Shown piece by piece: positions 1,227 to 12,274 of a stretch of 64,000 bases of DNA. The notes beneath the pieces are model-generated. The model had not been told where the DNA came from. It searched no databases and saw nothing but the letters and a program-made list of their open reading frames with translations. Position numbers and translations under genes: made by a program. How positions within the stretch are numbered: the stretch's first letter is position 1; each line of letters begins with the position of its first letter. The DNA comes from Chitinophagaceae bacterium 26-R-25. Its GTDB lineage: Bacteria > Bacteroidota > Bacteroidia > Chitinophagales > Chitinophagaceae. The stretch covers positions 1,240,001 through 1,304,000 of the forward strand of contig JARWSJ010000001.1 of NCBI GenBank assembly GCA_029906195.1, given 5' to 3'.

Positions 1227-3098
1227 ATGCTTAAAGCCCCCATCACCACTAAACTGCTGCTTGCCTTTTTGGGGTTTGGATTGGCTGTGCCTGTTTTTGG
1301 ACAACTTAAGTATGACTGGCTAACGACATCTAACGGGTTATCGCGTTGGTTCGCTTATCTTATTTACGTGCTGTTGATTGGGTTCGCAGTGAGGGCCTAT
1401 TTTTTATTCAGGATCAATAAAACAAGACTTCAATCTCAATTAGATTATGAGCATCAGGAAGCAAAACGTGTGAAGGAATTAGATACGCTTAAAACACAAC
1501 TCTATGCCAATTTTACGCATGAGTTTAGAACACCACTCACTGTTATACAAGGCATGGCCAACCAGGTAAAAAACGAACCGGAAAAATACCTCGATACCGG
1601 CACTGAGATGATTGTACGTAACAGTCAGTACCTGCTCAACCTTGTAAATGAAATGCTCGATTTATCAAAGCTGGAAGAAGGGAAGATGAAGCTTCACCTT
1701 ATAAATGGCGATGTGATTATTTTTTTAAGATATGTGGTAGAATCTTTTCAATCCTTAGCCGTCGGCCAGCAAAAGCAATTTCACTTTTTACCTGATACGG
1801 ATGAATTGACGGTGGCTTATGATGCAGAAAAGTTGCGGCAGATTGTTTCCAATCTTTTGTCCAACGCCTTAAAGTTTACACCGGAAGAAGGCAATGTGTA
1901 TATAAGTGTTTCGCAGGAAGCAGCTACAGCCGCTGACCACACCATATTGGTTTTAAAAGTAAAAGATACTGGCATAGGTATTCCTGAAAATCAAGTGCAG
2001 CACATATTCGACCGGTTTTATCAGTTGGATAACAGCCACACACGCAAAGCAGAAGGTACGGGAATCGGTCTTGCACTGACAAAAGAACTAGTAAAACTTA
2101 TGAAGGGGACCATTGCCGTAAAAAGTCCGGCGGCGGGTGCAACAAAAGGTACAGAGTTTATAATAACGTTACCTCTGCAAAAAGCAAGTGAGGAAGATAT
2201 CGTGGCAGCGGTTCCCTTATATACAGAGGAACCCATAATCATACCAGCTCACGCGGCAATTGAACCTGTAATCATCCACAATGAAAACACAGCGCCTTCC
2301 ACACCACTGATTTTACTGGTTGAAGACAATGTGGATGTTGTGACTTACACCGCCAGCTGTTTACCGCATTATAAACTGGCTGTTGGTAAAGATGGAAAAG
2401 AAGGTTTTGATATTGCAGCAGAAATAATTCCGGATTTAATTGTGACAGATGTAATGATGCCGTTTATTGATGGCTTTGAGATGTGCAAAAAACTAAGACT
2501 GGATGAACGTACCAGCCACATTCCCATCATTATGCTTACTGCAAAAGCGGACATGCAAAGCAAGCTGGAAGGACTGGAGAAAGGTGCGGATGTATATTTG
2601 GAAAAACCCTTTCACAAAGAAGAATTATTACTACGCATCAAAAAACTGCTGGAGCTCCGAAAAAAATTACAGCAGCATTACAGCAAACAAATTGGCATTG
2701 CACAACACACAGAAATTGTAGTGACGGAAGAAATTATAACTGCAACCATTGGAGAATCGGCGGAGCATGAGTTTGTGAGAAAAATAAGAGAGCTGGTGGA
2801 AGCCAATTTTTCCAATTATGAATTTAGTGTGGAGCAGTTGTGCAAGTTAATATTCATGAGTCATTCACAACTGCATCGCAAGCTGGAAGCTTTGACCGGT
2901 TGTTCACCCAATAGATTTATCAGAATCGTACGATTAAAAAAAGCAAAAGGATTATTGTCCAACCCCGCACTAAGTATTGGTGTTATTGCATTGGATTGTG
3001 GATATGCTGATGCTGGATATTTTGCCAGGGTATTTAAGCAGGAGTACGGAGTAACCCCACAAGAATGGAGAGTGGGCAATATCTCGAACGATAGATAA
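1227..3098 (+). CDS. Hybrid two-component regulator (HTCS) lacking its periplasmic sensor
   Basis: A 623-residue fusion of histidine kinase, receiver and AraC-type DNA-binding domain. In order: signal peptide (1-25), a short stub with WLTTSNGLS (31-39), one membrane helix (about 41-61), HisKA with phospho-acceptor H98 in FTHEFRTPLT, HATPase with NLLSNALKF, DTGIGIP and GTGIGLALT boxes, receiver with phospho-acceptor D408 in VTDVMMP and conserved K in EKPF, and a two-helix-turn-helix AraC domain at about 530-620 ending in GVTPQEWR. HTCS proteins are usually 1,300-1,500 residues because of a beta-propeller plus Y_Y_Y sensor; here the typical first lines of the propeller run straight into the membrane helix. 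All cytoplasmic motifs are intact. It may be constitutive, may answer membrane signals, or may be dying. No target locus lies next to it. Confidence 0.9.
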   Translation: MLKAPITTKLLLAFLGFGLAVPVFGQLKYDWLTTSNGLSRWFAYLIYVLLIGFAVRAYFLFRINKTRLQSQLDYEHQEAKRVKELDTLKTQLYANFTHEFRTPLTVIQGMANQVKNEPEKYLDTGTEMIVRNSQYLLNLVNEMLDLSKLEEGKMKLHLINGDVIIFLRYVVESFQSLAVGQQKQFHFLPDTDELTVAYDAEKLRQIVSNLLSNALKFTPEEGNVYISVSQEAATAADHTILVLKVKDTGIGIPENQVQHIFDRFYQLDNSHTRKAEGTGIGLALTKELVKLMKGTIAVKSPAAGATKGTEFIITLPLQKASEEDIVAAVPLYTEEPIIIPAHAAIEPVIIHNENTAPSTPLILLVEDNVDVVTYTASCLPHYKLAVGKDGKEGFDIAAEIIPDLIVTDVMMPFIDGFEMCKKLRLDERTSHIPIIMLTAKADMQSKLEGLEKGADVYLEKPFHKEELLLRIKKLLELRKKLQQHYSKQIGIAQHTEIVVTEEIITATIGESAEHEFVRKIRELVEANFSNYEFSVEQLCKLIFMSHSQLHRKLEALTGCSPNRFIRIVRLKKAKGLLSNPALSIGVIALDCGYADAGYFARVFKQEYGVTPQEWRVGNISNDR

Positions 3099-3150: not shown

Positions 3151-3210
3151 TGTCGTTTAGTTAAGATGTTTGAAAAATAAAAAGCATGTCGCTTGTGATC
3201 TGTGGTGATT
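3151..3210. repeat. Truncated copy of the dispersed hairpin repeat beside mazF
   Basis: 3151-3196 matches 3876-3921 over 46 bases with four differences. The match resumes at GATCTG (3197-3202), skipping the left hairpin arm, and runs into the stop codon of the toxin gene at 3209. With the full copy at 3876 it places direct repeats on both sides of the toxin-antitoxin pair. Confidence 0.7.
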
Positions 3211-3544
3211 ATAAATCTAAAACGATTTTGAGATTCTGTTTAAGTTGAAACGACTGCTCAGTGGTAAGTTTGCCAAGTCTTTTTATGAAACGTTTGTTGT
3301 CGATAGCCCTGGGTTGGTCGACGAGAATGTCGCTCGGCTTTGGTAGTTGCGACTTTTTAAGATGAATTCTTAATAATTCAGCTTCTGGTTTTATGTTCGT
3401 TGTTATCGGACACACAATTGTTGACAGATGTATGTCATTTAGCAAATCTGTTTGAATTATCACAACTGGTCTCGTTTTACCAGGTTCGGTTCCCACTGTT
3501 GGATTTAAATCTGCAAGCCAGATGTCATATTGCTTATATCTCAT
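3209..3544 (-). CDS. mazF: MazF/PemK-family endoribonuclease toxin
   Basis: A 111-residue protein, the usual MazF size. The N-terminus carries the family signature: YDIWLADLNP (strand 1 and loop), then GTEPGKTRPVVII, with the conserved G-x-E-x-x-K-x-RP and the strand that forms the RNA-binding face. MazF toxins cleave mRNA at short single-stranded motifs when the antitoxin is degraded; that activity is known for the family and not shown here. ATG 3544 is preferred over the TTG at 3550. The start overlaps the antitoxin stop by 11 bases, so the two are translationally coupled. Flanking direct copies of a palindromic repeat suggest that the pair arrived or moves as a cassette. Confidence 0.88.
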   Translation of the reverse strand: MRYKQYDIWLADLNPTVGTEPGKTRPVVIIQTDLLNDIHLSTIVCPITTNIKPEAELLRIHLKKSQLPKPSDILVDQPRAIDNKRFIKRLGKLTTEQSFQLKQNLKIVLDL

Positions 3545-3764
3545 CGGCAAGCTTTTCGAATTCAGCTAATATTTCTGAAGAACTTTGAGCCACCAGTCTA
3601 CTTTCCTGAGCAAGTTTCTTTTTCAAAACTCGTCTTTTATTATACTGATTGTAAAGATTAAGCGCCTCGTTGATATAACGATTTCGTGCAAGCTTTAGCT
3701 CGGAAACAACCTTTTCAGTTTCTTCAAAAACGTCATCATCAAGTTTAAGAGATAGTGTTTTCAT
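3534..3764 (-). CDS. Ribbon-helix-helix-type antitoxin partner of MazF
   Basis: A 76-residue protein whose first part, TLSLKLDDDVFEETEKVV, has the beta strand plus helix pattern of an RHH DNA-binding domain, followed by RNRYINEALNLYNQY, the second helix. The C-terminal part (about 45-76) is charged and helical, as expected for the disordered toxin-neutralising tail. It is the first gene of the pair, as is usual for antitoxins. A palindrome overlapping the promoter (3785-3805) is the natural site for its autorepression. It starts at ATG 3764. Confidence 0.85.
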   Translation of the reverse strand: MKTLSLKLDDDVFEETEKVVSELKLARNRYINEALNLYNQYNKRRVLKKKLAQESRLVAQSSSEILAEFEKLADEI

Positions 3765-4950: not shown

Positions 4951-4984
4951 AGAAGCTGCCCCAAAAAGAAAACGGGCAGCTTCT
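4951..4984 (-). terminator. Hairpin terminator after the diheme cytochrome gene
   Basis: AGAAGCTGCCC (4951-4961) pairs perfectly with GGGCAGCTTCT (4974-4984). It lies 24 bases beyond the cytochrome stop and is followed on the minus strand by an A/T-rich tail. It probably ends the transcript that starts at tetR or the TonB receptor. Confidence 0.65.
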
Positions 4985-5007: not shown

Positions 5008-6090
5008 TTATTTTTTTTGCCGTTGCATTTTATTGATCCATTCTGTTATTAATTGCACACCTTCTTTGTGTATCACTGTTCTTGCAAGCTCCGGCATTGC
5101 GGTACCAGGCTCCGCGCTGTTCATGCGGTAGGCAAGAATAGAGTGGGCTGCATCGCCTGGAATGATATCGTAATTAAGACCTCCGGCACCTCCGCCTGCA
5201 GACACAGGTTCCTTCATAATCCCAATATGTGGAAGATCTTTTTGCTGGTATTCTAAAAATAGGCCAGTATTGTACGCATCACCTCCGTGGGTATGGCAGT
5301 GCGCACAGTTAACATCCAGGTAAGCACGTGCCCGTTGGTCAAGCGTAAAATGTTTTGCATCGTTCCATTTAGGCAACACAGGCACTGTTGAAATATCAGG
5401 CAAACCGGCAATCATACCAAGCTTGGCCATTTCAGATAATTGATTCTCGTTGTGACCCGCAACAGTAACGTTAAGATTGCGTGCCTTTGGCCCGATGGGC
5501 GTAAAAATGTCGTTGTTAATATGACATCTTTTGCAATCATTGGTATTGGGTACCTGGTAAGTGGTGGTAATTTTGTTGCCATCATCATCCAGTAAGGTGA
5601 TAGGCAAACGGGCTCCTGTAATGTGTTTTATGGCGTCTGTTTGTTCTGCATTCCACAGGTAATCCATCACTTTCCATTTTTTATCAAAGGGATCTTTTAC
5701 CAGCAACCTTGTCTCAATCATAATTTTTTTATGATCAGTATTGGTGTAAGCAAAATTTTTGATGAGGATGGTAGAATCTGGAAAATCCTGTACACCTTCA
5801 GCTACAAAGTTCATTTGTTTCCCGTTTGGCAATACGATGTAACGATCTTTAACTGCATAGTCAGTAAATAACGGAGTAGCCAGTTCGTAATGAAATACAC
5901 CGGGTTGCGGATCGAGGTCCTTTAAATTGGTTTTAAAAAAACCGTACTCAGATAGTTTTTCTTTAAACTGGTAAGATCCATCAACAGCGGCCTTTTCCTG
6001 CTGCTGATTATTTCCGCAACCTTCAATCATAAGCATACCTGCAACAATCGAAAGAAATATGCTGCCGCCAAATAAAATATAGTTCTTCAT
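5008..6090 (-). CDS. Diheme c-type cytochrome lipoprotein, SO_2930/HNE_0200-like
   Basis: A 360-residue exported protein. The N-terminus is a lipoprotein signal with the acylated Cys expected at C25 (IEGC). Two heme-binding sites are visible, CKRCH at 186-190 and CAHCH at 262-266, and M332 in GTAMPE could be an axial ligand. The region before the first heme (40-180) resembles the conserved N-terminal part of the SO_2930-type cytochromes, a small family of unknown function that is typically encoded next to a parallel beta-helix protein, exactly as here. It likely carries electrons in the periplasm or at the outer membrane. It is last in a four-gene minus-strand group, 50 bases after the beta-helix gene. 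The electron donor and acceptor are unknown. Confidence 0.85.
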   Translation of the reverse strand: MKNYILFGGSIFLSIVAGMLMIEGCGNNQQQEKAAVDGSYQFKEKLSEYGFFKTNLKDLDPQPGVFHYELATPLFTDYAVKDRYIVLPNGKQMNFVAEGVQDFPDSTILIKNFAYTNTDHKKIMIETRLLVKDPFDKKWKVMDYLWNAEQTDAIKHITGARLPITLLDDDGNKITTTYQVPNTNDCKRCHINNDIFTPIGPKARNLNVTVAGHNENQLSEMAKLGMIAGLPDISTVPVLPKWNDAKHFTLDQRARAYLDVNCAHCHTHGGDAYNTGLFLEYQQKDLPHIGIMKEPVSAGGGAGGLNYDIIPGDAAHSILAYRMNSAEPGTAMPELARTVIHKEGVQLITEWINKMQRQKK

Positions 6091-6140
6091 TTCAAAAAGT
6101 TTGCAACTACCTCAGTAGTTTTCTTGGTTTGGATTTTTTG

Positions 6141-7433
6141 CTATTTGCAATTGTATGCTGAAACCTCAGTGTTTGGGTGCCAAACTTTGGGATTATTAAT
6201 GTTTATAAAGTCTGCATTCACGAAAATGTTATCTCCCTGCTGTTGTATGCAAAGTGAATCTGGATTAGGAGTTGTTCCTTTAGTAAGCAGGTTGGTTGAA
6301 ACACCATCGTACATGATGTACGGGATGCGTTTGTTTTTTCGAGTCGGGTCCTGCGCATTTAATTTTTGTTCAATGCCCACCAGCAGTTTGCCGATATGAT
6401 GCTGGTAAACCGGTTCAGGAAAACTGTTTCCCATTTCCATAGTATTGTCATGGATTTTTATATTTTTTGAAATGGGTGAATAATGATCATTTATTTTTTC
6501 AACAGCTTTATCATCAACTGCAAAACCGGATGCAAGAATGATGGCACCCGAATTGTTATTCAGGATGCGGTTATTGTACAGTTCAATATTTGATGCAGCA
6601 AGAATAATTACACCACTGCCGGGCGAAGCATTACCAACGCCCCATGAAGTACCGAAACTTCCGGCTTTTGCAAAGTTTCTAAAGTTGTTATCATGAAAAT
6701 AATTGTCGTGCGCCTTTACATAGCCACCTCTTTGTGAGAGACCCGGAAGATCGAAGACAAGAAAACCGGCTGTATTGTCGTAGAATTCATTGCCATAAAC
6801 TTCCGCATGCAGTGTGTTTTCAATTTCGCATCCGGCAACATTTTTTGCGCCCTTGCAATTTCTTACAATAGCTGTGTCTGTCTGGCCCACATAGATACCG
6901 GCGTCTGAAGAACCTTGCGCATAGCAGTTTTCAATGAGCACGTTTTTACATAAGACAGGATAGATGGCATAACCTCCGCTTGTAGAATCAGCTGTTTTCC
7001 AGATAGCATGAAGATTGTTTACCACTACATCGCGGCTCATATTTATTTTGAGAAGATCGCCTTTGGAATCGCGGATGGTCATATCATTAACGGTAAAGCC
7101 ACTAACATTGGTCACGCGAATTCCTTCACCACCGGATGTTTGCTGAGAGAAGTCGAGAATCGTTTTGTCAAAACCCTCGCCTCTGATGCGTATGTTTTTT
7201 ACCTGAGCGATGCTAAGATTTTCAAACTTGTACGTTCCCTGTTTTAATAAAATATCTGTACTGTCTTTGATGGACAGAAATGCTTCTACAATTTTGCTTT
7301 CATCGCCGGGGCCGAAGGTGAGGCTTGTGTTATAAGCATCTTTGTGTGTTGAAGTCGCAGGATTGCTGCAGGAAGAAAACAGGAATGCCACAGATATAGT
7401 GAACAGTAGAGAGAATGATTTTATAATTTTCAT
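6141..7433 (-). CDS. Parallel beta-helix lipoprotein, partner of the diheme cytochrome
   Basis: A 430-residue lipoprotein (FSSC, acylation expected at C22). Residues 50-350 are made of short repeated coils rich in N and V/I with the pattern seen in right-handed beta-helices: IRGEGFDKTILDFS, VNDMTIRDSKGD, VLIENCYAQGSSDAGIYVGQ, IVRNCKGAKNVAGCEIEN and others. This matches the family of beta-helix proteins that co-occurs with SO_2930-type cytochromes. Such folds bind or cleave polysaccharides, but no lyase or hydrolase catalytic set can be named from sequence alone. It lies 30 bases after the TonB receptor gene and 50 before the cytochrome gene, so cotranscription is likely. The surface location is inferred from the lipoprotein signal. 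Confidence 0.85.
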   Translation of the reverse strand: MKIIKSFSLLFTISVAFLFSSCSNPATSTHKDAYNTSLTFGPGDESKIVEAFLSIKDSTDILLKQGTYKFENLSIAQVKNIRIRGEGFDKTILDFSQQTSGGEGIRVTNVSGFTVNDMTIRDSKGDLLKINMSRDVVVNNLHAIWKTADSTSGGYAIYPVLCKNVLIENCYAQGSSDAGIYVGQTDTAIVRNCKGAKNVAGCEIENTLHAEVYGNEFYDNTAGFLVFDLPGLSQRGGYVKAHDNYFHDNNFRNFAKAGSFGTSWGVGNASPGSGVIILAASNIELYNNRILNNNSGAIILASGFAVDDKAVEKINDHYSPISKNIKIHDNTMEMGNSFPEPVYQHHIGKLLVGIEQKLNAQDPTRKNKRIPYIMYDGVSTNLLTKGTTPNPDSLCIQQQGDNIFVNADFININNPKVWHPNTEVSAYNCK

Positions 7434-7463
7434 ATAATGTTTTTAAGAAAATAAAAAATGAAA

Positions 7464-10223
7464 CTAGAAAATATTATAAGCATAGGTTACATAATAAACC
7501 GCGCCAATTGCCGGATTGGCGGTGCCGGTAGAGTAGTACTTGTTGGTGATATTTGTTCCACCAATTCTAATTCCGGAATGTGCTTTTATAAGCTTGTAAC
7601 TGATCTGCGCATCTATAACGGATGATGAAGGCACGTTGCCTTTTGCCAGTCCGCCGTTTACTGCATAGAAATATCCGGGTTTATAACGCATGGACACACC
7701 ATATGACCATTGCTGGTTTTTACCAAACCCGCTGTTTGAAAAATCCATGTTAACATGAAAATGCGGCGTATTGAAATTATTGATCTGGCTATTATTCTTG
7801 TTAACCATGTAGTCTGCATAATAATTTACTTTGAATAAATAATTGTGCGTAAGATCTACGCTCATGCTTGCTGCCCATCCATAGGTGTTTACCATTTCGG
7901 TACCATTAAAAGCGATGTTGTAAGATACATATGTGCTGCGGTCCTTAAAAGCCGCAGGGTCATTTGTTCCCGGTGTATTAGCTACATCCGCATATCCAAT
8001 GAAATTTTTCCACGTAGAGAAGTAACCCAATACATCCAGTAAAACTCTTTTGCCGATCAATGTAGCGTAACCAAGCTCGAACGCATTCACCGATTGAGGT
8101 TTCAGCTCATTAGTATAAAACCGTTTCAGCGAGTCGGGCACGCTTGATTCCTGGTATGCTTTAACGCTCGCAGCGGTGTATGGTGCGTATTGGTTAAAAT
8201 GATAGATATCGTTCAGCAAATAGCCTGAGCCACCAGATGAATAACTGTTATATCCATTGAGGGTATTTTGCAAAGCTTGTATGTTGGATGGAAAGCTGTA
8301 GGCATTCTGGTATGAAAAACGGATGAAATTATCTTTAGCCGCTTCATACACTGCAGAAAACCTGGATGTAACTTTTGGCGTTGGGAACAAACTGTTTTTA
8401 TCGTCTCTGAAGGAAGCACTCAGTGCTAGTTTATCATGAAGGATCTTTTTTGATAATTGTATATATGCGCTGTATTCATTCACTTTAATAGGCGTTCCCA
8501 TATCAGGGAAGAGCGTGTTCTTGCTGTTAAGGCTGTAATGACGCCAGTTTACCCCTGCAATTACATTTACGAATTTGATGAGTTTTGAAAAATTATATTG
8601 CGCCTCAGTATTGTACAATTTACTTCTGTCTAAAAACAATGTACCACCTTCTGGAATAGGAGTGGAGGCAATACTATCCTTCAAATGATTGAAGTAAGCG
8701 GTACCTGGCATAGCCCTTCCCTGGTCGGCAAAAGATCTTGCGGCAAGATTTGCATCAACAGAACTCATGCCGTTAGCCAATCCATTCAACAATGCCTCTG
8801 TATATTCAGGATACCAGCCGCCCGCGGCGCCGTCGTAACTTGTTTTCCAGGCTTCATTGATCAATTGCGCAGTAGGGCCGGCCACCAATGTTTTTCCTGA
8901 ATTTTCTTGTGTAGTGTAGGAGCGCACAAACCAGTTGGCGCTTTTAAGTTCGAGCCTGTATTGCCCAACTTTAAAATCCTTCAACTGGTACCTTGTGTCG
9001 TTGGTATAAACAACGCTTCCAGTACCATAAGTGCCGGAGGCAATCGCTTCAAGTTTATCAGAAATCTTGTACCTGATCTCCGCGTTTCCTTTAAACAAAC
9101 CCGCATTGTTATCGAGGTAGCCATACTCAGGGTAACCCGTGCGTGCAACGTAGTTTGGTTTTTCCAGCATGGGAGATATGAGTGGGTCCAGTGCCGGGTT
9201 CTGCGACAATGCATACTCCAGGAAAGGGTTGATGTCTGTTGATGTAGCGCTGCCGTAATCATTCACGCCCATGTAATTTGGATCGGTGTATTTTGTACCC
9301 GTTCCGTTTTTATTGGTCGTGTCGGTTGCTACCCAGTCCTTTGCTTTTGTGTATTGTGCATTGATTTTAAATGCCAGTTTATCGTTTATTTTTTTTGCAT
9401 AGCGGATCGTCCAGTCATAGTATGGCGAAGGCTTAACAGGATCATTGCTGTTTTTGTTACTGATATGGTTTACACCTTGTGTGATGAGAACGCTCAGTCC
9501 CTGGTATTTGAAGGGATCTTTACCCGTCATTACCATCGTGCCATTCAGTCCCCTTGATCCATACAACGCAGAAGACGCGCCCGATAGCAACTCAATGTTG
9601 TCTACGTCAAGTTGTGTAAGGCCAATAGCAGTTCCAAGCGGGAAATTGAGTCCGGGTGCCTGGTTATCCATGCCGTCCACAATTTGGGTAAAGTTCGTAT
9701 TACCGCTGGTGTTAAAGCCTCTCGTCGTAACACTTGTGAATCCAAGGCTGGACACCGTTACATCAACGCCTTTTAATCCCTGCATCATATCCATATAGTT
9801 CAGCTGGGGCGCATTTGCGATTTCTTTGCTGCTTAGCTGTTCTATGGTTACCGGTGATGCAAGTTTCCGCTGTGTAGTGCGGCTTGCGGATACTACTACC
9901 TCCTCGCCCAAGCCGGTTGCTTGCTGCAATTCTATGGTCAGTGGCTGTGAAACTGTCGACACAACAACTTCCCTGGTGCTGAAGCCAATGGAAGAAATGA
10001 TTAAAGTAAGGGGCAGTTTTGCATTTGTATTCAATTGGAACCTTCCGCGGTTATCGGTATATGTACCCTGCGATGATCCTTTAATTGAAACGGATACTGC
10101 ATAAAGAGATTCTTTGGTTCCCGCATTCTTAACATCTCCTTTGATAACATTTTGTGCATAGGATACGGATGCGGTAAAACAAAATAAAGCAAGTGGCAAA
10201 AGCAATCGTCTGATTCTTTTCAT
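7464..10223 (-). CDS. TonB-dependent outer-membrane receptor
   Basis: A 919-residue receptor. Signal peptide 1-23 (ends SVSYAQ), then a carboxypeptidase-regulatory-like domain at about 26-108 (VIKGDVKNAGTKESLYAVSV...), a plug domain at about 110-240 with LASPVTIEQLSS and TRGFNTSGNTNF, and a 22-strand barrel to the C-terminal aromatic residue (YNIF). It lacks the STN domain, so it is not a sigma/anti-sigma transducer. It is not a SusC-length protein and no SusD is adjacent. In this cluster it is the only import gate and should bring in the ligand handled by the beta-helix and cytochrome proteins. It lies 61 bases after tetR on the same strand. The ligand is unknown. Confidence 0.92.
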   Translation of the reverse strand: MKRIRRLLLPLALFCFTASVSYAQNVIKGDVKNAGTKESLYAVSVSIKGSSQGTYTDNRGRFQLNTNAKLPLTLIISSIGFSTREVVVSTVSQPLTIELQQATGLGEEVVVSASRTTQRKLASPVTIEQLSSKEIANAPQLNYMDMMQGLKGVDVTVSSLGFTSVTTRGFNTSGNTNFTQIVDGMDNQAPGLNFPLGTAIGLTQLDVDNIELLSGASSALYGSRGLNGTMVMTGKDPFKYQGLSVLITQGVNHISNKNSNDPVKPSPYYDWTIRYAKKINDKLAFKINAQYTKAKDWVATDTTNKNGTGTKYTDPNYMGVNDYGSATSTDINPFLEYALSQNPALDPLISPMLEKPNYVARTGYPEYGYLDNNAGLFKGNAEIRYKISDKLEAIASGTYGTGSVVYTNDTRYQLKDFKVGQYRLELKSANWFVRSYTTQENSGKTLVAGPTAQLINEAWKTSYDGAAGGWYPEYTEALLNGLANGMSSVDANLAARSFADQGRAMPGTAYFNHLKDSIASTPIPEGGTLFLDRSKLYNTEAQYNFSKLIKFVNVIAGVNWRHYSLNSKNTLFPDMGTPIKVNEYSAYIQLSKKILHDKLALSASFRDDKNSLFPTPKVTSRFSAVYEAAKDNFIRFSYQNAYSFPSNIQALQNTLNGYNSYSSGGSGYLLNDIYHFNQYAPYTAASVKAYQESSVPDSLKRFYTNELKPQSVNAFELGYATLIGKRVLLDVLGYFSTWKNFIGYADVANTPGTNDPAAFKDRSTYVSYNIAFNGTEMVNTYGWAASMSVDLTHNYLFKVNYYADYMVNKNNSQINNFNTPHFHVNMDFSNSGFGKNQQWSYGVSMRYKPGYFYAVNGGLAKGNVPSSSVIDAQISYKLIKAHSGIRIGGTNITNKYYSTGTANPAIGAVYYVTYAYNIF

Positions 10224-10284
10224 AAGCGTTCGTTTGGGTTTGGTCTACTTTTATGGTTAGGTTTCAAAGCTGCTTGCAGGCTGT

Positions 10285-10890
10285 TTACTTTTTTTTCAGC
10301 CCGGTGAATATGAGCGTTACCAGGAATTTCATATCGGTGATACTTTGGGTATAGTCTATCTTATCCTCTCCGCGCAATATTGATTTTTGTTCTTCGCTAT
10401 GTTTCAATGCATCGCTCAGGTTTATGAGTGTGGATGCGATTTTGGTGGCATTTGATTTCACCAGTTCTCCATTTTTTGTGGCTGTTTCAATGAGTTGTGT
10501 CAGGAATTTCTTTTCCTGTTTCATCATCGAATCATATAGTTCAAAAAACTTCGGTAATATTTTATTGAGTGTTTCCGCAGACACCCTGTTCATGTTCAGC
10601 ACATTCTTATAGTAGTTAAACCTGCTGTACATATAAAACCATATCTGATTTTCTATCCCTTTCTTCCTGATTGTTTGTTGCTGCAGCTTTGCGAGGTACT
10701 CTTCACCTTCGCTCACTGCAATTTCAAGGAAGATGTCCTCCTTGTTTTTATAGTAATAATACAGGGTAGCTTTATTAAGCCCCACCACTTTGGCAATATC
10801 TCCCAGTGTAGTTTTATCCAGTCCGAATTTTGCGAAGCACTGCATTGCCGCTTTGCCAATTTTATTCTTTACATCTTCCTTTTTTGTCAT
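10285..10890 (-). CDS. TetR/AcrR-family transcriptional regulator
   Basis: A 201-residue regulator. The N-terminal helix-turn-helix is clear: TTLGDIAKVVGLNKATLYYY followed by YKNKEDIFLEI. The C-terminal ligand-binding part (60-195) is all-helical without recognisable signature. It starts at ATG 10890. A perfect 14-bp inverted repeat 42 bases upstream (10932-10964) is the likely operator and would let it control both itself with the receptor-cytochrome group and the divergent monooxygenase. TetR regulators are usually repressors released by a small molecule, here perhaps the substrate of the pathway (inference). Confidence 0.92.
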   Translation of the reverse strand: MTKKEDVKNKIGKAAMQCFAKFGLDKTTLGDIAKVVGLNKATLYYYYKNKEDIFLEIAVSEGEEYLAKLQQQTIRKKGIENQIWFYMYSRFNYYKNVLNMNRVSAETLNKILPKFFELYDSMMKQEKKFLTQLIETATKNGELVKSNATKIASTLINLSDALKHSEEQKSILRGEDKIDYTQSITDMKFLVTLIFTGLKKK

Positions 10891-10931
10891 CGCCGTAATT
10901 TAACAAAATGAATATATGTCCTATTATTTAT

Positions 10932-10964
10932 TTTTTCAAACATTTTATTCAAATGTTTGAAAAA
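10932..10964. promoter_or_regulatory. Perfect 14-bp inverted repeat, probable TetR operator
   Basis: TTTTTCAAACATTT (10932-10945) and AAATGTTTGAAAAA (10951-10964) are exact reverse complements separated by TATTC. It lies in the divergent promoter region between tetR (ATG 10890) and the monooxygenase (ATG 11147). The size and symmetry suit a TetR dimer or pair of dimers. It has no GC-rich stem, so it is a poor terminator. Confidence 0.7.
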
Positions 10965-11146
10965 TAGAATTATTTTGAACGACGCTTTGAGAGGTAATTT
11001 TCTTCCGTAACCGGAAATATTATTTTTAGAAGCAGAAAAAGACAATGGTATCTTTTAAAAGAAACAAGCGTCTTTATCGGTGTTTCATTTTTTCAAAAAA
11101 ATGAAAGCCATACTCTTATTAATTGCTTATACGATTCACTACCATT

Positions 11147-12274
11147 ATGAAAAAAACACAAACGCTCATTGTTGGCGCCAGCATTTCAGGCCTTGCATGT
11201 GCAGGCGCGCTTACCAAAGCAGGACTCGAACATACTATTATTGAAAGGGCCGAACGTATTGCAATGCCCTGGCGCAACCATTATGATCGCCTGCACTTGC
11301 ACACCAGCAAGCATCTGTCTGAATTGCCTTATAAAAAATATGCTGCAGGTACACCACGTTATCCCCCTCGATTGCAGGTTATAGAGTATCTCGACAATTA
11401 CCAAAAGCAATTTCAAATCGATCCCCTTTTTAATACGGAAGCAACATCAATCAGGAAGGAAGGAGCGTATTGGATCATCGAAACAAGTAAAGCTGTTTTC
11501 CAAGCTGAAAATGTGATCATGGCAACCGGGCCATATGGCAAACCGAGAACAATTGATTTTAAAGGAGTGGAAACATTTCCGGGCGCTATCACACACAGCA
11601 GCAAGTACAAAAAAGGTGATGTATTTAAAGGGCAGAAAATTTTGGTCGTTGGTTTTGGTAATTCGGCTTGTGAAATAGCATTGGACCTTCATGAGCAAGG
11701 AGCATTACCTTCCTTGTCTGTAAGATCGGCTGTGAATGTATTGCCAAGGGATGTTTTCGGAATACCCATATTGCAGCTCAGTTTGTTGTTTTCTGTGCTT
11801 CCGCCTGCATTTGCAGATAAATTAAACGCACCACTGATAAATGCTTTGACGGGCGATATAAGGAAGCTGGGGCTTAAGAAACTTCCTTATGGCCCACTGG
11901 AGCAAATTCATAAACACCAAACTGTGCCATTGCTTGACATAGGTACATTGAAACTGATAAAAGACGGTAACTGCAAGGTTTTTGAAGGTATTGAAAACAT
12001 AGAGGGTAAAACCGTTTATTTCAGCAATGGAGCTAAAGAAGAATTTGACGGTATCGTGGCCGCTATCGGCTACGAAAAAGGGTTTGCATACCATGTGCTG
12101 CAAGTAGACAAAAGCAGGTTTGAAGATTTAGCTGTGCCAGTTGGCAAACAAAAGTATTTTGGAAAAGATGGTCTTTATTTCTGCGGATTTTTTATTTCTC
12201 CCAACGGGCAGATACGCGAGATTGCTTCGGATGCAAAAAAAATCGCAGGAAGTATTGTTAAGAATGGGAGCTGA
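11147..12274 (+). CDS. FAD/NAD(P)-dependent monooxygenase (YUCCA/flavin-containing monooxygenase-like)
   Basis: A 375-residue cytoplasmic flavoprotein. The FAD site is at the N-terminus, LIVGASISGLACAGAL, followed by the acidic end of strand 2 (IIERAE). A second dinucleotide site, ILVVGFGNSACEIALDL, at about 160-180 should bind NADPH. ATGPYGKPR and the late AAIGYEKG are the ATG-type motifs joining the domains. The overall size and order resemble YUCCA-type flavin monooxygenases, which hydroxylate or decarboxylate small substrates. ATG 11147 is used; a TTG lies upstream at 11123. It is divergent from tetR, sharing the presumed operator, and convergent with the SRAP gene 13 bases away. A copy of its last 67 bases is found at 13476-13542. 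Confidence 0.9.
   Translation: MKKTQTLIVGASISGLACAGALTKAGLEHTIIERAERIAMPWRNHYDRLHLHTSKHLSELPYKKYAAGTPRYPPRLQVIEYLDNYQKQFQIDPLFNTEATSIRKEGAYWIIETSKAVFQAENVIMATGPYGKPRTIDFKGVETFPGAITHSSKYKKGDVFKGQKILVVGFGNSACEIALDLHEQGALPSLSVRSAVNVLPRDVFGIPILQLSLLFSVLPPAFADKLNAPLINALTGDIRKLGLKKLPYGPLEQIHKHQTVPLLDIGTLKLIKDGNCKVFEGIENIEGKTVYFSNGAKEEFDGIVAAIGYEKGFAYHVLQVDKSRFEDLAVPVGKQKYFGKDGLYFCGFFISPNGQIREIASDAKKIAGSIVKNGS

Follow-up and report, generated by a model that had tools for sequence, protein, structure and literature searches.

Four genes on the minus strand of a 64,000-nucleotide stretch from Chitinophagaceae bacterium 26-R-25 (contig JARWSJ010000001.1, positions 1,240,001 to 1,304,000; hereafter the window; genome size 6.5 Mb) encode, in this order, a TetR-family regulator, a TonB-dependent receptor, a parallel beta-helix lipoprotein of family TIGR03805 (BHX) and a diheme c-type cytochrome of family TIGR03806 (CYT). 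The unit suggests an undescribed route for the uptake and oxidation of an oily organic compound. The reading that we prefer, which is tentative and drawn from gene content and conservation, is that of a TetR-repressed outer-envelope operon that would serve to take up a hydrophobic compound and to break it down oxidatively by way of an aldehyde, with CYT as a redox component or an enzyme. The BHX-CYT pair is known by name; what is new is its form as a receptor-plus-lipoprotein-type uptake operon with a regulator. A pair for which the open-access literature searched gave no function is thereby placed in a defined operon, together with a receptor of its own, a regulator, a putative operator and a recurring aldehyde dehydrogenase (ALDH); genera that carry this operon, such as Pedobacter, Sphingobacterium, Chitinophaga and Pinibacter, have cultured members.

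The gene unit and its conservation

The regulator gene (tetR, 10285-10890) is gene 1 of the operon and is followed by those for the receptor (7464-10223), BHX (6141-7433) and CYT (5008-6090), with gaps of 61, 30 and 50 bp. Divergently, on the plus strand and outside the conserved unit, lies a flavin monooxygenase gene (11147-12274), whose start was taken as the ATG at 11147 and not the listed TTG at 11123. All five open reading frames reported in a first-pass annotation of this DNA are present and of the kind it named, as judged by Pfam and NCBIfam domain scores. The regulator has a TetR_N DNA-binding domain (PF00440, 52.8 bits against a cut-off of 24), the receptor a Plug domain (PF07715) and a CarboxypepD_reg-like N-terminal domain (PF13715), and the monooxygenase FMO-like and dinucleotide-binding domains (PF00743, 75.6 bits against 22). 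BHX (281 bits against 141.5, model positions 1-314 of 314) and CYT (354.8 bits against 313.3, positions 3-314 of 314) score over the curated cut-offs of their families and are adjacent, like the named pair, from which they differ in being built into a regulator-receptor operon. Lipobox-like motifs were noted by eye in both (FSSC in BHX, IEGC in CYT); CYT is likely a lipoprotein, and BHX is likely the outer-membrane partner of the receptor. A terminator-like inverted repeat, AGAAGCTGCCC/GGGCAGCTTCT (4951-4984, minus strand), was also seen by eye about 24 bp past the CYT stop codon; its loop of 12 is above the loop limit of the terminator scan, so that it is unlisted there. Scans for sigma-70-type promoters and for terminators gave results near chance level.

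A TIGR03806 search of 395 genomes of the phylum gave 22 over cut-off, and one of 294 genomes of the family gave 33 genomes with 34 places over cut-off. A scan of named genomes returned the best 80 of at least 569 confirmed relatives, a set that is therefore biased to close relatives and was split into the 34 loci nearest the window (L129-L162) and 46 further loci. Pinibacter aurantiacus (Chitinophagaceae) is the closest named genome among the matches listed, with a CYT 96% identical to that of the window.

Throughout the 34 nearest named loci, from Chitinophaga, Pedobacter, Sphingobacterium, Niabella and others, BHX adjoins CYT. A receptor homologue is found at the cluster in 30 of them (28 full length, one partial in L130, one broken in L161), and a regulator lies upstream in 29, TetR in 13 and LytTR in 16; neither occurs in L131 and L133, which lie at contig ends, or in L138, L143 and L161. 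An ALDH gene is at the cluster in nine loci and a flavin monooxygenase in two (Pinibacter and one metagenome-assembled genome). The first-pass annotation had proposed a five-gene system, to be reduced to the BHX-CYT pair if the other genes were not kept with it. The receptor does stay with the pair; TetR does so in part, LytTR taking its place elsewhere; the monooxygenase does not, and the five-gene system as first stated was rejected on that account. Likewise, the single divergent promoter region said to be shared by all five genes holds as a description of the layout, but conservation gives a four-gene unit plus a lineage-specific neighbour. Two of the loci, L136 and L137, are copies within one genome, that of Pedobacter panaciterrae; their CYT and BHX are identical, and the two operons, on the same contig, are inverted relative to each other and separated by about 146 kb.

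Among places over cut-off, BHX stands beside CYT in 18 of 22 phylum genomes (absent in L050, L055, L060 and L057, the contig of the last starting 1.3 kb ahead of CYT) and in 31 of 34 family places (absent in L104, and in L093 and L118 at contig ends). No BHX was found at the seven places inspected (L120-L126) out of nine family CYT places below cut-off. CYT and BHX trees with midpoint roots were made from the window and the 65 loci in which both frames are complete; L176 forms a long branch. In each tree a branch with 100/100 support separates the window and the 29 L129-L162 loci in the set from the remaining loci. The receptor association is therefore restricted to one group in this sample; the nearest loci were delimited by similarity to the window and include L138 and L143, which are without a receptor. 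Within the receptor-bearing group, regulator and ALDH come and go.

Receptor matches of at least 60% identity occur in ten family genomes, nine of which have CYT. In the tenth, G569, the receptor gene is interrupted and directly preceded by an open ALDH frame; a search for CYT gave nothing at E <= 1e-20, and neither BHX nor CYT was matched in the stretch inspected, a pattern of decay that would fit one function being lost together. This form of CYT occurs in eleven family genomes. Two of them lack the receptor: in G445 the locus (L110) is at a contig end, and in G652 (L109) there is a fragment.

Regulators, putative operator and divergent monooxygenase

The 256-bp tetR-monooxygenase intergenic region (10891-11146) contains a perfect inverted repeat, TTTTTCAAACATTT-n5-AAATGTTTGAAAAA (10932-10964), a putative TetR operator with the core TTTCAAACATTT-n5-AAATGTTTGAAA (10936-10960). 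A motif derived from the window was scored in 17 distinct tetR upstream regions, with two duplicates dropped and L116 outside the set. Scores of 18-24 of 24 were obtained in 14 of the 17 (13 of 16 without the window); in these regions at most one of 300 dinucleotide shuffles equals the score, and the palindrome lies 49-76 bp before tetR. L114, L115 and L130 are below threshold at 16-17 of 24. At 18 loci with LytTR, a regulator unrelated to TetR that occupies its place (PF04397; two members scanned), the score is at most 16. Genome-wide, the pattern at up to three mismatches has one perfect place and one three-mismatch place in the window genome, against four per strand for a reversed-pattern control. 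At up to two mismatches it has places in eight of 11 other genomes and none in three, with controls at 0-2 per strand; the eight have one place each, except for a second two-mismatch place in Pinibacter. By itself a weak match is therefore of little meaning. TetR presumably binds the palindrome, and because the latter is conserved with tetR and perfect once in the window genome, TetR has the look of a repressor devoted to the operon that it heads.

With the Bacteroidota promoter motif (-33/-7) applied by eye, the tetR-proximal arm of the palindrome falls where the -33 element for tetR would be expected, and TAnnTTT-like -7 stretches lie about 20 bp further on in several loci. A regular promoter search gave no match toward tetR in the window. 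Toward the monooxygenase, a weak, possible Bacteroidota-type promoter (TTG, 17 nt, TAATTTTC; 10975-11002, plus strand; one match, deviating at one position) begins some 10 bp past the palindrome, and in Pinibacter the monooxygenase is possibly co-regulated by TetR.

The monooxygenase scores below the cut-off of the ArsO model. Close homologues (E <= 1e-60) are present in 16 of 294 family genomes, at 52-64% identity apart from the window's genus pair. They are enriched among the genomes that have this form of CYT (4/11 versus 12/283, Fisher p 0.0016), a count in which two of the four are Pinibacter-like genomes of one genus (the window's and its nearest relative) and in which orthologues and paralogues are pooled, since the window genome itself holds a second copy (59%) in unrelated surroundings. 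The homologue is on another contig than CYT in G445 and G528 and 3.1 kb from CYT in the metagenome-assembled genome L141; a third genome of the window genus has a close homologue without a CYT match. We take the monooxygenase as a loose functional neighbour of the operon.

Heme sites, neighbouring enzymes and possible function

CYT has two heme sites, CKRCH (residues 186-190) and CAHCH (residues 262-266). Both CxxCH sites and Met332 are invariant in 168 of 168 alignment rows. Leaving aside the CxxCH motifs and the initial Met, no further His or Met is conserved above 90% in those rows: His341 is conserved at 89%, and His264, at 94%, falls within the second CxxCH. Met332 stands at the position of a class I cytochrome ligand and would serve the second heme. 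As there is no conserved second His or Met to act as sixth ligand, the first heme may be an open one, a state that would be in keeping with an enzymatic role. CYT has no Pfam match, and a 52-row profile found no PDB match at E <= 0.1; for BHX a PDB profile search gave only weak matches to phage appendages, pectate lyase and pectinesterase. RoxA/RoxB and MauG/CCP, like CYT, are extracytoplasmic diheme c-type proteins, by analogy only: CYT is without sequence homology to RoxA, MauG or CCP by Pfam and PDB profile, and its 360 residues compare with 678 in RoxA, the product of which is given as an oligo-isoprenoid aldehyde (PMC10947199). A bolder proposal, which we regard as improbable, is that CYT founds a further extracytoplasmic diheme oxidase/oxygenase class that with BHX attacks hydrophobic, perhaps isoprenoid-like, compounds at the outer membrane, the receptor importing the product under TetR or LytTR control. 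Should CYT prove enzymatic, this would mean an additional class of surface diheme oxidase.

The ALDH of the relatives is a PF00171 protein whose best NCBIfam model is MdlD benzaldehyde dehydrogenase (387 bits, below the cut-off of 550). Its nearest solved relatives are 6k0z, dimeric NADP-preferring aldehyde dehydrogenase (which we take to be ALDH3A1) and fatty aldehyde dehydrogenase; it is ALDH3-like. The gene lies between tetR and receptor in L132, L140, L141 and L152, directly after CYT in L151, L153, L154 and L156, and divergently in L142, and it accompanies the TetR form in 8 of 13 loci. In L140 and L141 (L141 scanned) the gene after CYT belongs to the fatty acid hydroxylase family.

More distant company was sought in Alphaproteobacteria, among 337 genomes of the class of a Rhodobiaceae genome. 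CYT (E <= 1e-60) is present in 14, all over cut-off, and BHX adjoins it in all 14. Near the pair are a TetR gene in at least five (L198, L294, L298, L300 and L306), a receptor in three, a cytochrome P450 directly upstream in two (L301, scanned; L302, by likeness) and adjoining DUF1302-DUF1329-YCF48 genes in four (L198, L296, L297 and L299); these counts are lower bounds, because the labels rest mostly on homology to a few named proteins. DUF1302, DUF1329 and COG4447 are AmeABC of a monoterpene-linked system (PMC6394551), and DUF1302/DUF1329 proteins are stated to be needed by P. putida for the use of Tween20 (PMC10866462). The YCF48-type gene would correspond to AmeC (COG4447). The likeness to AmeABCD of Castellaniella (DUF1302, DUF1329, COG4447 and RND) concerns the four alphaproteobacterial loci; such genes are absent at the window locus, and what is available of the AmeABCD account names no beta-helix or cytochrome. 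On a Novosphingobium plasmid the order is ALDH, adhP, receptor (apparently split by an insertion sequence), BHX, CYT, further receptor, ALDH. In L301 (6929-13252) and L302, both genomes of 1.4 Mb, genes for a P450, BHX, CYT and a GFA-domain protein lie in a row, with a TonB-dependent receptor adjoining.

It is this company in different lineages, namely the fatty/aromatic-type ALDH with the fatty acid hydroxylase family gene, the P450s and the Ame-like transport genes, that argues for a hydrophobic substrate. Surface recognition of a substrate, its oxidation and import would fit the gene content. The BHX lipoprotein would bind or present the substrate at the receptor, CYT would oxidise it or take its electrons, and the receptor would import the product. 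The aldehyde could then be oxidised inside by ALDH in the relatives, or be handled by other enzymes such as the monooxygenase in Pinibacter, and TetR would be released from the palindrome by substrate or product.

Several observations weigh against a catabolic uptake operon of this kind. Each hydrophobe-linked neighbour is variable, and the window cluster has none of them, only the monooxygenase; ALDH is absent from 25 of the 34 nearest clusters and from that of the window, whose genome has its nearest ALDH (57%) elsewhere, in unrelated surroundings, and it accompanies LytTR in only 1 of 16 loci. The alphaproteobacterial catabolic neighbours vary also, several of the 14 genomes showing none of those named. 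The decay argument comes from one genome, G569, and G492 keeps BHX and CYT yet has one stop in its receptor gene. As to the heme, about 16 of the 168 CYT rows were picked by a pattern including MPE and the rest by similarity, some loci entering twice, and His341 or a Lys or Tyr could ligate the first heme, Lys81, Lys111, Tyr68, Tyr144 and Tyr178 being near-invariant and possible ligands. Finally, the 46 further loci have BHX in 41, a receptor-like match in two, the window-type TetR in none, the ALDH of the nearest loci in one and a weak monooxygenase match in one. Of the five-gene neighbourhood envisaged at first, the receptor and partly TetR are kept with the pair at the 34 nearest loci, beyond which the pair is mostly found without this receptor or TetR. 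Since most of the 46 have the pair without them, the pair can work without receptor, ALDH and TetR.

This occurrence of BHX-CYT without a window-type receptor would suit an electron-transfer pair and nothing more, in which CYT would be a carrier that passes electrons to a periplasmic or external acceptor, the receptor and ALDH being neighbours that draw on the pair. In the open-access literature no functional account of the TIGR03805/TIGR03806 pair was found, only passing mentions of SO_2930/SO_2931, subscription papers being mostly outside that coverage. These mentions lean in the same direction: SO_2930 and SO_2931 of Shewanella are listed among outer-membrane/extracellular c-type cytochromes (PMC4837345), and SO2931 is among the outer-membrane cytochromes deleted together in an electron-uptake study (PMC5829830). 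However, TetR, P450s, ALDH and hydrophobe transport genes near the pair in several lineages point to organic catabolism, and one CYT heme is without a conserved His/Met sixth ligand; we consider electron transfer alone rather unlikely.

TetR, ALDH3 and flavin monooxygenases are common in detoxification, and TetR might sense a toxic aldehyde, quinone or terpenoid that the cytochrome, ALDH and monooxygenase remove. The NCBIfam matches of TetR, which include efflux regulators and a fatty-acid regulator, all below their own cut-offs, would be in line with this. An import receptor kept at most of the nearest loci is hard to reconcile with removal, though, and no recurrent efflux pump appears among the identified neighbour clusters, part of which were scanned; we hold detoxification to be quite unlikely. 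Least probable of all, in our judgement, is acquisition of a metal, heme or other cofactor, whereby CYT would reduce a metal complex at the surface for import by the receptor. A receptor with a surface redox protein is a logical layout for that purpose, and L117, L145, L153, L154 and L155 hold, at a distance of one to a few genes past CYT, an additional TonB-dependent receptor akin to siderophore receptors (the one member scanned, from L153, scores 213 bits, the cut-off being 223.5). Against this, the regulator is of the TetR or LytTR type, an aldehyde dehydrogenase is the enzyme that recurs, and the window receptor matches five NCBIfam models, all of them below cut-off.

Receptor kinship and adjacent genes

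The window receptor scores 95.1 bits with the SusC model TIGR04056, against a cut-off of 368.25. The window operon resembles SusC/SusD pairs in having a TonB-dependent receptor with a carboxypeptidase-regulatory-like N-terminus followed by a lipoprotein gene; it differs in the SusC score far below cut-off and in the adjoining gene, which is BHX, a beta-helix lipoprotein followed by a cytochrome, and not SusD-like. Of 294 family genomes, 171 have receptor matches at E <= 1e-100. Receptors sharing about 41-48% identity with that of the window adjoin one gene cluster, purC-like by eye, in 18 of 20 fetched loci. These paralogous receptors (L268-L282 and L284-L287, from family genomes including that of the window) are followed by a lipoprotein of one cluster in 14 of 20 loci, one member scanned being Fasciclin; they would form another receptor-lipoprotein pair. 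The substrate was sought through this kinship, and the purC-like neighbours and fasciclin-type lipoprotein name none.

Elsewhere in the window, a gene at 1227-3098 (plus strand) encodes a hybrid histidine kinase/response regulator/AraC protein with only about 88 residues ahead of the HisKA domain, so that the large sensory half seems to be missing. At 3209-3550 (minus strand) lies a gene for the PemK/MazF-like toxin of a toxin-antitoxin system (PF02452).

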